Shown here piece by piece: positions 1,739 to 34,661 of a stretch of DNA of 64,000 nt. The notes beneath the pieces were generated by a model. That model saw only the letters and a list, made by a program, of their open reading frames with translations, was not told the DNA's origin and did no database searches. The position numbers and the translations under genes were made by a program. Where the stretch lies: NCBI GenBank assembly GCA_016214955.1, contig JACRMN010000020.1, positions 1 through 64,000 of the forward strand, in the 5' to 3' direction. Position 1 is the first letter of the stretch, and the number at the start of each line of letters is the position of its first letter. Source of the DNA: Deltaproteobacteria bacterium (GTDB lineage: Bacteria > Myxococcota > Myxococcia > Myxococcales > Anaeromyxobacteraceae).

Positions 1739-3004
1739 CTAGAACTTCCAGCCCAGCCCGAGGTCGGCGGCGAGCTGGGACATCGTGGTCTCGTAACTCA
1801 CCAGGCCCTGGCCCGCGGGAGGCGGCGAGGCGCTGGCGCCGGAGAGCTTGGCCTTGGGGGAGTAGCTGACGCCGGCGTTGACCGCCAGGGTCGGCGTGGC
1901 CGCCCAGCCCAGGCCCAGGGAAACGTGGTGCTCGGCGATGGCGGGGAAGACGATGTTCTCGAAGGCGCGCGCCGCGTCGAGCGGCATCTTGCCGTAGTTC
2001 CAGCCGGCGCGGACGGTGAAGGCCGGCGCCACGTCGAAGGCGGCGCCCACCTTCACGACCACCTGGTCCTCCCAGCCCATGTCGAAGGGCAGGGCTCCGG
2101 TGCGCTGGGTGTCGTTCTTGTAGACCGGCTTCTTGTCGCCGTTGGTGTCCGACCAGTTGATCCACTGCACGTCGAGCGCCAGCAGCAGGGCCGGCATGGG
2201 CCGGTAGGCGACCCCGCCCGAGATCACCGCCGGCTGGTCGAAGTCGAGCTGGTCCTTGCCGCCGGGCACGGTGGCGGTGCCGCCCAGGCCGTCCGGAACC
2301 TGGTGCGAGGGGATGTCGAACTCGAAGTTGCCGAAGAAGCTCCTCGACTCGTAGGCCAGGCCGAAGGAGAGCTCCTTCATCGGCGTCAGCTTCACGCCCA
2401 GCGTGGCGCCGTAGCCGTAGGCGTTGGCGGTGTCGTGCTTCACCTGGCCGAAGCCGCTGGCCACGTCGTACTTCATCTGGCCCCACATCACGTTCACCGC
2501 CAGGCCGGCGGAGAACATGTCGTTGGCTTTCCAGGCGATGGCCGGGGCCACCCGCATGTTCTGGTAGGAGGTGAGCGAGGCGCCAGAGTAGAGGTTGGCC
2601 TTGTAGTCCACGCCCATGCCGCCGACGCCGAAGGCGCCCAGGCCGGCGGTGAAGCCGCCGCCCAGCGGCACCACCACGCCCAGGTTCGGGACGGGCGAGC
2701 CGCCGCGATCGGAGGAGAAGGTCGCGCCGGGCTGGTTGACGAAGGGCGGCGCGATGCCGGTGGCCTTGTACTCCACCGAGGGCTGGAACCAGGTGAGGTT
2801 CACGTCGAGCCGGCGGCCGAGCTCGGTGAGGCCCGCCGGGTTGCTGATGGCGGCCGAGGCGTCGAGCGTGGCGCCCACGCCCACGCCGCCCATGCCGTTC
2901 TGCACCGCGCCGAAGCCGGTCATCCGCATGCCGTTGGTGGCCAGCGCCGGCCCAGCGAGGGCGACTGCCGCGGCCGCGACGGCCGCCTTGCCGATCCTGT
3001 TCAT
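1739..3004 (-). CDS. FadL/OmpP1/TodX-family outer membrane transport protein
   Basis: A 421-residue outer-membrane beta-barrel for uptake of hydrophobic substrates such as long-chain fatty acids. The ATG at 3004 is preceded by a strong Shine-Dalgarno (GGAGGGGAG) and starts a signal peptide ending at ALA. The mature protein begins TNGMRMTGFGAVQNGMGG and continues to an NPAGLTEL motif, the FadL hallmark hatch region. The C-terminus ends LGLGWKF, an aromatic-terminated barrel strand. The frame is open further upstream but that part lacks a signal peptide. A sigma-54-type promoter lies about 80 bases upstream, and the next gene upstream encodes a sigma-54 activator in the same orientation, so the pair is probably a regulator-target unit. 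The substrate cannot be told from sequence. Confidence 0.9.
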   Translation of the reverse strand: MNRIGKAAVAAAAVALAGPALATNGMRMTGFGAVQNGMGGVGVGATLDASAAISNPAGLTELGRRLDVNLTWFQPSVEYKATGIAPPFVNQPGATFSSDRGGSPVPNLGVVVPLGGGFTAGLGAFGVGGMGVDYKANLYSGASLTSYQNMRVAPAIAWKANDMFSAGLAVNVMWGQMKYDVASGFGQVKHDTANAYGYGATLGVKLTPMKELSFGLAYESRSFFGNFEFDIPSHQVPDGLGGTATVPGGKDQLDFDQPAVISGGVAYRPMPALLLALDVQWINWSDTNGDKKPVYKNDTQRTGALPFDMGWEDQVVVKVGAAFDVAPAFTVRAGWNYGKMPLDAARAFENIVFPAIAEHHVSLGLGWAATPTLAVNAGVSYSPKAKLSGASASPPPAGQGLVSYETTMSQLAADLGLGWKF

Positions 3005-3085
3005 GTCTCCCCTCCGTTGGTGTTCCCGCGCCGGGCGCGGGCTGCGACGAGACGGCGCGCTCCTGCCGCGCGCCCCATCCGGGAA

Positions 3086-3101
3086 AGCTCGCCCCGTGCC
3101 A
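3086..3101 (-). promoter_or_regulatory. Candidate sigma-54 (-24/-12) promoter of the fadL-type gene
   Basis: On the minus strand the sequence TGGCACGGGGCGAGCT matches TGGCACR-N4-TTGCW at 10 of 12 defined positions and keeps the invariant GG-N10-GC spacing. The predicted transcription start is near 3074, giving a leader of about 70 bases to the ATG at 3004. The gene upstream encodes a GAFTGA-containing sigma-54 activator, which strengthens the call. Confidence 0.7.
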
Positions 3102-3161
3102 GGATCGATCCGCCGTGGTCTTGGCATGTTAGGCGCTGACGGTCGTCGCCTGCGCCGCCCG

Positions 3162-3182
3162 GTTGCAACACCAGGTTGCGAC
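3162..3182. promoter_or_regulatory. Paired GTTGCRAC palindromes, likely activator-binding enhancer
   Basis: GTTGCAAC at 3162-3169 is a perfect 8-bp palindrome. A near-identical copy, GTTGCGAC, follows at 3175-3182, 13 bp centre to centre. The pair lies 60-100 bp upstream of the sigma-54 promoter, between it and the activator gene. That is the usual place for the upstream activating sequence of an enhancer-binding protein with a Fis-type helix-turn-helix. Binding is inferred. Confidence 0.45.
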
Positions 3183-3193
3183 GTCATGTCTCG

Positions 3194-4603
<1,410 letters not shown>

Positions 4604-4744: not shown

Positions 4745-7030
4745 ATGAGCCAGAGCCCCGAGCCCCGCCCGGCCGCCTTCCACCCCTACATCGCGGCCGA
4801 GACCCAGATGCCCGAGCTCACGCTCCGGGCGGTGATCACCGGCACCATCCTGGGCATCGTCTTCGGCGCCTCCTCCCTCTACCTGGTGCTCAAGGTCGGC
4901 CTCACCGTCAGCGCCTCCATCCCGGTGGCCGTCATCTCCATCACCCTCTTCAAGCTGCTGGGGAAGGTGGGGGTGAAGGAAGCCACCATCCTCGAGAACA
5001 ACATCGTCCAGACCGCCGGCTCGGCGGGCGAGTCGATCGCCTTCGGCGTGGGCGTCACCATGCCGGCCATCCTCATCCTCGGCTTCGACCTGGAGCTGAC
5101 GCGGGTGATGCTGGTGGCGGTGCTGGGCGGCCTGCTCGGCATCCTGATGATGGTGCCGCTGCGGCGCGCGCTCATCGTCCAGCAGCACGGCAAGCTCAAG
5201 TACCCCGAGGGCACCGCCTGCGCCGAGGTGCTCAAGGCCGGCGCCTCGCCCGAGTCGCGGGCCGCGGCCTCGCAGGCGGCGCGCGACGAGGAGGCCCAGG
5301 GGCCGAAGCAGGGGCTCTCCGCCCGCACCATCTTCACCGGCTTCGGCATCGGGCTCGCCTACAAGACGGCGATGGTGGCCCTCAAGGGCTGGAAGGACAC
5401 GCCCGGCGCGGTGTTCGGCAAGCCCTTCCAGGCCGGCTCGGTGGCCATGGAGATCTCCCCCGAGCTGCTGGGCGTGGGCTACATCATCGGCCCGCGCATC
5501 TCGGCCACCATGGCGGCCGGCGGCGTGCTCGCCTACCTGGTCCTCATCCCGCTCATCAAGTTCTTCGGCGAGGGGCTGGCCGGCCCGCTCGAGCCCGGCA
5601 GCATCCCCATCGCCAAGATGGGCCCCAACCAGATCCGCGGCGCCTACGTGCTCTACATCGGCGCCGGGGCGGTGGCCGCCGGCGGCATCATCAGCCTGAT
5701 CCGATCCCTGCCCACCATCTGGCACGGGCTGCGCGAGGGGCTCCGCGACGTGGCCGGGCCGCGCGCCGCCGGCGAGGCCCGGCGCACCGACCGCGACATC
5801 CACATGAAGTGGGTCTTCGGCGGCATCGTGGCGCTGATCGTGGCCATCCTGCTGGCCCGCCCGCTCCACATGAACCTGCTGGGCGCGGTGCTCATCGTCG
5901 TCACCGGCTTCCTCTTCGTCACCGTCTCCAGCCGCCTCACCGGCGAGATCGGCTCCTCCTCCAACCCCATCTCCGGGATGACGGTGGCCACGCTCCTGCT
6001 CACCTGCCTGGTGTTCCTGGTGGTGGGCTGGACGGGCGGCGGCTACTACGTCACCGCCCTCTCGGTGGGCGCCATCGTCTGCATCGCCGCCTCCAACGGC
6101 GGGACCACCTCGCAGGATCTCAAGACCGGCTACCTGGTGGGCGGCACCCCGCGGCTCCAGCAGATCGCCATCCTGGTGGGCGCGCTGGCCTCGGCGCTGG
6201 TGCTCGGCCCCATCCTGCTCAAGCTCAACGACGCCGCCACCGTCTACGTCCCCGTCGCCCAGGTGGCGCCCGCCGGCCTCGGCACCGACGTGGCCAGGCT
6301 GCCCCCGGCCCGCGAGGCGCTGCAGGGCGTGCAGGCCCGCGGCGACGGCAACAGCTATCGGGTCTGGCACAAGACCGACGACGCCGGCGGCCCGGCCGGC
6401 AAGTACCTGGTGGACGACGCCGGCAAGGCGGTGTGGCTCGCCGACCCGGGCATCAACGGCACCCACAGCAAGCGGCCCGACGGCAGCGAGGTGAAGAAGT
6501 TCGACGCGCCCAAGGCCACGCTGATGTCGTACATCATCAAGGGCATCCTCGACCGCAAGCTGCCCTGGGGGCTGGTGCTGTTCGGGGTGATGATCGCGCT
6601 GGTGCTGGAGCTTGCCGGGGTGCCGTCGCTCGCCTTCGCGGTGGGCGTCTACCTGCCGCTCTCCTCCTCCTCGCCCATCCTGGTGGGCGGCGCGGTGCGC
6701 TGGCTCGTCGACAGGGCGCGGCGCAAGGAGGTCGCGCACCTCCAGCTCTCCGAGGACCAGCTGGCCGCCGACGCCGACAAGAGCCCGGGGGTGCTCATGG
6801 CCTCGGGCTACATCGCCGGCGGCGCCATCGCCGGCATCGTCATCGCCTTCATGGCCGGCCTGCTCGAGGACGTGGACGCGGCGCTGGCCCGGTGGTCCAC
6901 GGCCCACAACCCCTTCTTCGAGGGGCCGGCCGCCGACCTGCTGGCGCTCCTGCCCTTCGGCGCGCTGACGGCCTTCCTCCTGCTGGTGGGATGGGAGAAG
7001 CTCCTCTCCGCCCGCAAGGCCCCGGGCTAG
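4745..7030 (+). CDS. OPT family oligopeptide transporter
   Basis: A 761-residue inner-membrane transporter of the oligopeptide transporter (OPT) family, which imports small peptides or metal-chelator complexes using the proton gradient. Hydrophobic helices run along the whole length. Family-typical stretches include the N-terminal PELTLRAVITGTILGIVFG and YPEGTACAEVLKAG around residues 155-170. A hydrophilic insert of about 100 residues (~500-600, with DGNSYRVWHKTDD) separates the later helices and probably lies outside the membrane; this insert is typical of the bacterial OPT subgroup. ATG at 4745 has AGAGGA upstream and its own promoter. The cyclase gene follows after 78 bases and could be co-transcribed. 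Confidence 0.92.
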   Translation: MSQSPEPRPAAFHPYIAAETQMPELTLRAVITGTILGIVFGASSLYLVLKVGLTVSASIPVAVISITLFKLLGKVGVKEATILENNIVQTAGSAGESIAFGVGVTMPAILILGFDLELTRVMLVAVLGGLLGILMMVPLRRALIVQQHGKLKYPEGTACAEVLKAGASPESRAAASQAARDEEAQGPKQGLSARTIFTGFGIGLAYKTAMVALKGWKDTPGAVFGKPFQAGSVAMEISPELLGVGYIIGPRISATMAAGGVLAYLVLIPLIKFFGEGLAGPLEPGSIPIAKMGPNQIRGAYVLYIGAGAVAAGGIISLIRSLPTIWHGLREGLRDVAGPRAAGEARRTDRDIHMKWVFGGIVALIVAILLARPLHMNLLGAVLIVVTGFLFVTVSSRLTGEIGSSSNPISGMTVATLLLTCLVFLVVGWTGGGYYVTALSVGAIVCIAASNGGTTSQDLKTGYLVGGTPRLQQIAILVGALASALVLGPILLKLNDAATVYVPVAQVAPAGLGTDVARLPPAREALQGVQARGDGNSYRVWHKTDDAGGPAGKYLVDDAGKAVWLADPGINGTHSKRPDGSEVKKFDAPKATLMSYIIKGILDRKLPWGLVLFGVMIALVLELAGVPSLAFAVGVYLPLSSSSPILVGGAVRWLVDRARRKEVAHLQLSEDQLAADADKSPGVLMASGYIAGGAIAGIVIAFMAGLLEDVDAALARWSTAHNPFFEGPAADLLALLPFGALTAFLLLVGWEKLLSARKAPG

Positions 7031-34549: not shown

Positions 34550-34640
34550 CACAGCCGCGCGGCCCTTGGCCCGCCGGCGTCCCCTCGGATGGGGCGCGCC
34601 GCGGCGCTCGGGCGCGTCCCCGGTACCGGTGGCTCGATCC

Positions 34641-34661
34641 CGGCACGGGGGCTGCTATATT
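34641..34661 (+). promoter_or_regulatory. Overlapping sigma-54-like and -10 elements at the kinase start
   Basis: CGGCACGGGGGCTGCT (34641-34656) matches the -24/-12 consensus at 10 of 12 defined positions with GG-N10-GC spacing. TATATT (34656-34661) immediately follows and could be a sigma-70 -10, although no -35 box is visible. Either would start transcription at about 34667, only about six bases before ATG 34673, so the message would be almost leaderless. Confidence 0.45.

Follow-up and report, generated by a model that had tools for sequence, protein, structure and literature searches.

In the stretch of DNA analyzed here (64,000 nucleotides from a Deltaproteobacteria bacterium of the Anaeromyxobacteraceae; called the window throughout), the gene for an outer-membrane porin appears to be governed by a local, FisR-like, sulfur-responsive sigma-54 switch, and the porin would pass zero-valent sulfur or some other sulfur compound. 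Judging from sequence comparisons, we put the probability of this reading at roughly 0.6. That the regulatory unit is real we hold to be highly probable, and a sulfur theme of switch and porin is, on the same comparisons, moderately probable.

Read along the minus strand (the host genome has 5.3 Mb in 30 contigs), the parts follow one another as an activator gene (3194–4567, 457 aa), predicted enhancer dyads (3164–3193), a -24/-12 element (3086–3102), an RBS-like AGGGGAG (3007–3013, recognized from sequence ahead of the ATG at 3004) and the porin gene (1739–3004, 421 aa), with the activator gene directly upstream of the porin gene and in tandem with it. The promoter, the GTTGCRAC pair and the gene for a PAS-type activator, the three parts named in the original prediction, all stand where it had put them. 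On the far side of the activator gene, across a 177-bp gap, an OPT-family oligopeptide transporter gene runs divergently (4745–7030, plus strand).

The promoter and its conservation

The element at 3086–3102 reads CTGGCACGGGGCGAGCT and agrees with 12 of the 14 informative positions of YTGGCACGRNNNTTGCW, keeping the GG (3100–3099) and the GC (3088–3087) that stand 10 nt apart within the -24/-12 consensus. By that consensus, it is a predicted sigma-54-dependent promoter, with transcription expected to start at 3075, 12 nt past the -12 C; rpoN was found in the window's genome, and no sigma-70 promoter was found in 2950–3350. How much should one make of such a match? Taken alone, it is weak, and what carries the case is the comparison with relatives. 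In the window, 24 matches with three or fewer mismatches stand against 25.5 expected (chance level), and two sites score 12/14 with GG and GC kept. The other of these two (CCGGCACGGGGGCTGCT, 34640–34656, plus strand) has its end 16 nt ahead of a reading frame of 673 aa; no strict dyad (the enhancer element described below, without mismatch) was found at enhancer distance from it, and it is likely a product of chance.

For the comparison, the first 135 residues of the activator were searched against 195 genomes of the phylum (E of 1e-12 or better) and matched in 28, among them 23 of the 24 genomes of the window's family, its own counted; the activator family is Anaeromyxobacter-centered. The fetched stretches gave 35 activator loci, the gene at L093 9320–10372 not being counted as an activator, though it clustered with them. 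Forty-nine genes face an activator, and 35 of these, belonging to seven partner clusters (c1, c3, c5, c8, c14, c21 and c25) that were picked after the listing of facing genes had been seen, were chosen for closer study; the 14 left out come from other clusters (the OPT transporter and others), and the activator loci L073 and L077 contribute no region to the 35.

Upstream of these genes, in 35 regions that are mutually related, GGCAC-N7-GC occurs in 27, compared with a mean of 3.3 and a maximum of 9 in 300 rounds of shuffling, and it stands ahead of 15 of 255 other genes of the same loci. The count becomes 21 of 28 once seven near-copies are dropped and 28 of 49 over all activator-facing genes (1 of the 14 left out has the pattern). 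The eight regions that lack it (L032, the L033 porin, L072, L080, L091, L093, L094 and L095) carry other GG-N10-GC elements, each picked as the best of its region, which is weaker evidence. A strict dyad and a GGCAC-N7-GC stand 60–140 bp apart ahead of 14 of the 35 targets and ahead of none of the 253 controls.

The enhancer dyads

The original prediction had singled out two GTTGCRAC palindromes and had proposed a search of the genome for further such pairs near -24/-12 sites. The two (GTTGCAAC, 3162–3169, and GTTGCGAC, 3175–3182, their starts 13 bp apart and the pair centered some 97–110 bp ahead of the predicted start near 3075) turn out to be a pair without a second: GTTGCRAC-N1-30-GTTGCRAC occurs at one place in the 5.3-Mb genome, and a pair with the exact 5-base gap and no mismatch occurs within the window only at 3162–3182.

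What the relatives share is a different arrangement of much the same letters. Between activator and promoter, the 35 regions are enriched in words such as GTTTCA, ACGTTTC, GTCGCA and GTTGCA, among others, and they contain the half-site GTYKCR 202 times, compared with 54.8 (sd 6.7) in shuffles. The most enriched arrangement of this half-site (which was chosen on the same regions used to count its spacing) is a 17-bp divergent dyad, YGMRAC-N5-GTYKCR, found in 17 of the 35 regions where 0.16 are expected; repeat spacings of 13 and 24 bp are also among those enriched. With one mismatch allowed, the dyad is present in 31 of the 35 regions and two or more dyads in 26, whereas shuffles give means of 2.0 (maximum 6) and 0.1 (maximum 1), respectively; L083, L090, L092 and L095 show none even then. 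Of 69 dyad centers, 62 fall between -60 and -140, and 43 fall in three 6-bp bins near -85, -97 and -109, bins that were defined after looking at the data.

The window has two strict dyads of this kind, CGAGAC-ATGAC-GTCGCA (3177–3193, center near -110) and CGCAAC-CTGGT-GTTGCA (3164–3180, center near -97), which overlap by 4 bp, and possibly a weaker third with one mismatch, TGCAAC-CGGGC-GGCGCA (3151–3167, center near -84), all on the minus strand; in the relative L024, the strict dyads sit at -97 and -84. The two GTTGCRAC palindromes arise because the dyads at 3164–3180 and 3177–3193 overlap. A better description of the unit is the dyad YGMRAC-N5-GTYKCR, a putative activator site, and we have dropped the GTTGCRAC units as binding sites themselves, the divergent dyad being the most enriched spacing across the family. 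The predicted dyads lie at the distance expected of enhancers of an NtrC-class activator, and dyads lie at similar distances in the relatives.

In the genome as a whole, the strict dyad occurs at 12 places, 2 of them at the window locus, and is thus not common (the same pattern read backward, our control, occurs at 42). One of the other ten has a -24/-12-like match of 10/14 at -166, inside a gene, and the remaining nine have no match of that quality at 40–220 bp. A strict dyad with a strong -24/-12 element is therefore peculiar to the window locus; by this strict criterion the switch is local, and the genome may hold weaker sites at other places. The claim of a complete, self-contained sigma-54 unit has thus held up well: the pairing of genes, the promoter and the dyads are conserved in relatives, the genome carries rpoN and it has no second strict dyad ahead of a strong -24/-12 element.

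Activator, porin and gene neighbors

By its Pfam domains, the activator has the makeup of an NtrC-class bacterial enhancer-binding protein: PAS_4 (22–111), a sigma-54 AAA+ domain (Sigma54_activat, 147–313) with GAFTGA, an AAA lid and a Fis-type helix-turn-helix (HTH_8, 420–452). In 28 aligned activators, G221, A222, F223, G225 and A226 of the GAFTGA are invariant and T224 is nearly so (the structure model is of low quality in the AAA+ domain, at a mean pLDDT of 68). The helix that reads the DNA hardly varies in the same 28 sequences, with S442, R443, T445–R448 and R451 invariant, which is in keeping with one enhancer code. Two cysteines are also well kept among family members with a letter at the position, C27 in 29 of 31 and C117 in 31 of 33, as are many other residues that are likewise invariant; both cysteines are absent from L094 and L095, two distant members linked to SQR.

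In 10 loci, the window included, the activator adjoins a porin (5 in tandem, 5 divergent). What else stands beside it? In 23 of the 35 activator loci, the fetched stretch contains an octaheme(-like), PhsA or SQR gene. These neighbors are of several types, recognized by profile scans of one or two members of each partner cluster and by BLAST clustering for the others: an octaheme tetrathionate-reductase-family cytochrome (TIGR04315) accompanied by a multiheme cytochrome b and a YeeE/YedE pair; PhsA-like molybdenum enzymes together with FeS and NrfD subunits; an SQR cluster, the facing gene in 4 of 35 loci, of which the scanned one is a type III SQR (L080 3538–4761, 537 bits to the "selenoprotein subtype" model); and DUF3373 with an octaheme-like protein below the model's cutoff. 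In L082, L084 and L086, the activator faces the DUF3373 gene, then c10 and then the octaheme-like cytochrome, and there DUF3373 is, we presume, possibly another outer-membrane barrel in the porin's place. In L029 and L033, a single activator faces both a porin and an octaheme operon, with GG-N10-GC elements on both. The YeeE and YedE partners each keep one cysteine (13 of 13 and 11 of 11, respectively).

The 12 loci without octaheme, PhsA or SQR genes, some of them cut by contig ends, are the window, L023, L024, L072, L073, L077 and L088–L093. The last six have activator paralogs that face a multiheme-type protein of unassigned role, which carries a carboxypeptidase-regulatory-like domain in the one scanned (L088), and they form a single branch on the activator tree. 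That tree, which omits L023 (a fragment at a contig end) and the gene at L093 9320–10372, recovers the multiheme group and the DUF3373 group as two well-supported units, and the SQR group holds together there with weak support. The porin-only label (seven rows, with two porin + octaheme rows set apart) requires four gains or losses, and activator and porin would therefore have joined more than once or often parted. The window's activator stands on a branch by itself, and the window's porin clusters with L022–L025, so that the two have partly different histories.

By profile (PF03349, Toluene_X, 3e-33) and by its modeled, FadL-like fold, the porin can be placed in the FadL/TodX family. The model has a pLDDT of 86, and its best PDB matches are TodX and FadL (Foldseek E of about 3e-26, TM of about 0.73), and sequence identity across the aligned fold is about 18%; cysteine is absent from the porin. 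In a search of 79 genomes, own included (E of 1e-20 or better), 19 matched. The closest relative, at 69%, is that of L022, where the genes run activator-porin-YeeE-YedE-c10-PhsA-FeS-NrfD (L022/L125), and in L026 and L027, of the window's genus, the porin follows ArsR-PhsA-FeS-YeeE-YedE-NrfD. Anaeromyxobacter soli SG29 and A. terrae SG22 (L130 and L133) have activator, porin and PhsA genes in one cluster, a Spirochaetes MAG (L145) has the run PhsA-FeS-NrfD-YeeE-YedE-porin, and the porin also accompanies PhsA in SAR324 (L149) and Acidobacteria (L154). Aligned were 17 porins (L034, L039 and L040, with no call or a partial one, aside), and the porin tree comprises 32 rows, of which 18 come from the first set and 14 from 40 loci found by the porin sequence alone, some of them in genomes already seen; the later loci left off the tree are mostly from first-set genomes or below 35% identity.

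Of those 40 loci, 24 reach 40% identity or more; the fetched stretch holds a PhsA or octaheme gene in 9 of these and neither in the other 15, some of which are cut by contig ends. Among the 16 below 40%, PhsA is present in 2 (L149 and L154). After the L136 porin comes an oxidoreductase that shares 40% identity with the SQR query across 273 residues. In an unplaced bacterial MAG, a stretch (L148 5696–6268) that matches the activator at 40% identity over 193 residues lies close to a porin relative of 34% identity. Across the 79 genomes, 13 have both porin and PhsA (the latter at E of 1e-150 or better), 6 have the porin only, 4 PhsA only and 56 neither, an association inflated by kinship; G003 and G005 have PhsA and the activator, and the porin was not found in them at its cutoff.

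At the window locus, no sulfur gene adjoins activator or porin. The window's own genome has its sulfur genes elsewhere, on contig 19, as an ArsR-PhsA-FeS-YeeE-YedE-NrfD run without a porin (L124 6439–12231), the PhsA of which is 84% identical to the L026/L027 type; the YeeE/YedE (Sulf_transp) pair lies at C19:236381–237582, away from the window locus. No sigma-54 element was found in the 400 bp before this PhsA operon, behind the ArsR-type gene, and no octaheme family member in the genome passes the cutoff.

Signal, cargo and known systems

The original prediction had taken a hydrophobic compound to be the likely signal. That idea finds no support in the family, 23 of 35 loci of which adjoin genes for the respiration or oxidation of sulfur compounds. 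Given how often the family's other partners are genes of sulfur respiration or oxidation, the signal is most likely a sulfur species, one that is reactive or intermediate: polysulfide, sulfane sulfur, thiosulfate or tetrathionate. For the cargo of the porin, the hydrophobic and the sulfur ideas can overlap, since S8 is hydrophobic.

Activators of this class loop to the polymerase, hydrolyze ATP and open the promoter. In the switch that we propose, the PAS domain would sense the sulfur species, perhaps by way of C27 and C117; the activator, product of the adjacent upstream gene, would bind the two overlapping 17-bp dyads some 97–110 bp before the start; and the bound activator would contact sigma-54 polymerase at 3086–3102 and turn the porin gene on. 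The porin would then help a sulfur compound across the outer membrane, S8 being the best fit to a FadL channel, and S8 would feed the PhsA/NrfD reductase and the YeeE/YedE transporter encoded elsewhere in the genome. Soluble polythionates are possible cargo as well. In chemical terms, S8 best suits a FadL barrel used with a YeeE/YedE pair because YedE1E2 is described as a demonstrated importer of zero-valent sulfur (PMC10812762). We may go one step further, tentatively: a FadL-family barrel could serve several phyla as an outer-membrane S8/polysulfide channel that works with a YeeE/YedE pair and with either a PhsA/NrfD or an octaheme reductase, and in Anaeromyxobacter relatives its gene would be switched on by a sigma-54 activator that senses sulfur and has an enhancer code of its own.

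Must the cargo be S8? It could instead be a soluble sulfur compound (tetrathionate, thiosulfate or polysulfide ion), or the porin could export a product, with S8 uninvolved, a view that we consider rather unlikely. It draws on the commonest neighbors, the octaheme tetrathionate-reductase-family and PhsA-like enzymes, which belong to families named for soluble substrates; however, general porins could serve for soluble oxyanions, those FadL-family channels whose cargo is known (TodX, TbuX, CymD and FadL, their cargo taken from titles) pass hydrophobic compounds and the sulfur that YedE1E2 is described as handling is zero-valent (PMC10812762).

Or might sulfur have nothing to do with it? The same switch, porin and activator could serve a hydrophobic organic compound (a fatty acid, an aromatic or a hydrocarbon) in the manner of TodX, TbuX and FadL, and the sulfur neighbors of the relatives would then reflect another use of the regulator family. 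The porin's sequence and fold relatives of known function (TodX, TbuX, CymD and FadL) point that way, as do the window locus itself, without an adjoining sulfur gene, the L137 and L138 porins, which are followed by FAD-linked oxidases, and other porins (L143 and L150) beside unrelated genes. The L144 porin has a gene of no assigned function beside it. Yet the activator has a PAS domain and not the V4R domain that XylR/DmpR-type aromatic sensors carry, no organic-catabolic gene was seen among the scanned part of the neighbors of the 10 activator-porin pairs and the closest porin, that of L022, sits inside a YeeE-YedE-PhsA run; we judge this alternative improbable.

We give next to no credence to chance, that is, to a functionless sigma-54-like match and repeat in GC-rich intergenic DNA, or to a pair that forms part of the activator gene's terminator: the -24/-12 match alone is indeed at chance level, but promoter and dyads are conserved and phased across relatives, and the terminator was rejected, no terminator-like site being found in 2950–3350 and the RNA of 3150–3200 folding no better than shuffles (z -0.70).

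On the preferred reading, a sulfur-responsive local switch for a sulfur-passing porin, the window locus and its relatives make a concrete candidate family for the crossing of the outer membrane by zero-valent sulfur, and the enhancer motif can be used to predict a regulon. The enhancers resemble those of NtrC and NorR, whose sites are paired dyads: in the window's family, too, an inverted repeat of about 17 bp, often paired, lies mostly 80–130 bp before the start, whereas the sequence (YGMRAC-N5-GTYKCR) and the 13- and 24-bp repeat spacings are the family's own. With TodX, TbuX, CymD and FadL, the porin has the PF03349 family and the fold in common; unlike them, its relatives lie in sulfur-reductase clusters at 11 of 40 loci.

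For the passage of sulfur across the outer membrane, a review from 2019 invokes "special outer-membrane proteins" (PMC6335251), and a 2023 paper states that the membrane proteins of S0 transport lack experimental confirmation (PMC10045233). Among the literature matches listed for FadL, elemental sulfur and the outer membrane (mostly titles and the openings of abstracts), no proposal of a FadL sulfur channel was found, nor one of such a channel under a sigma-54 switch. The nearest suggestions are an OprD-like porin for sulfur uptake in Sulfurovum (PMC10045233) and a porin beside YeeE/YedE in Desulfurivibrio (PMC12142623); as described in the parts of these papers seen, both tie an outer-membrane barrel to the use of zero-valent sulfur or polysulfide, as would the porin considered here, the Sulfurovum porin being of the OprD-like family, unlike our PF03349 porin, and neither being mentioned there with a sigma-54 switch.

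The closest concept is FisR, a sigma-54 activator described as answering sulfide and persulfide (PMC7315123). Compared by description only, FisR of Cupriavidus and of Acinetobacter baumannii is, like the window's activator, an AAA+ sigma-54 activator beside its target with a predicted sigma-54 promoter; the A. baumannii protein is reported to lack the regulatory-domain cysteines of the Cupriavidus one (PMC7315123). The window's activator does not stand beside sqr/pdo-type genes, as a FisR would, and its target is a porin, unlike that of FisR. Its family's sulfur partners are mostly reductases, which also differs from FisR, and yet in 4 of 35 loci the family, like FisR, faces a gene of the SQR cluster. 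The parts themselves are of known kinds.
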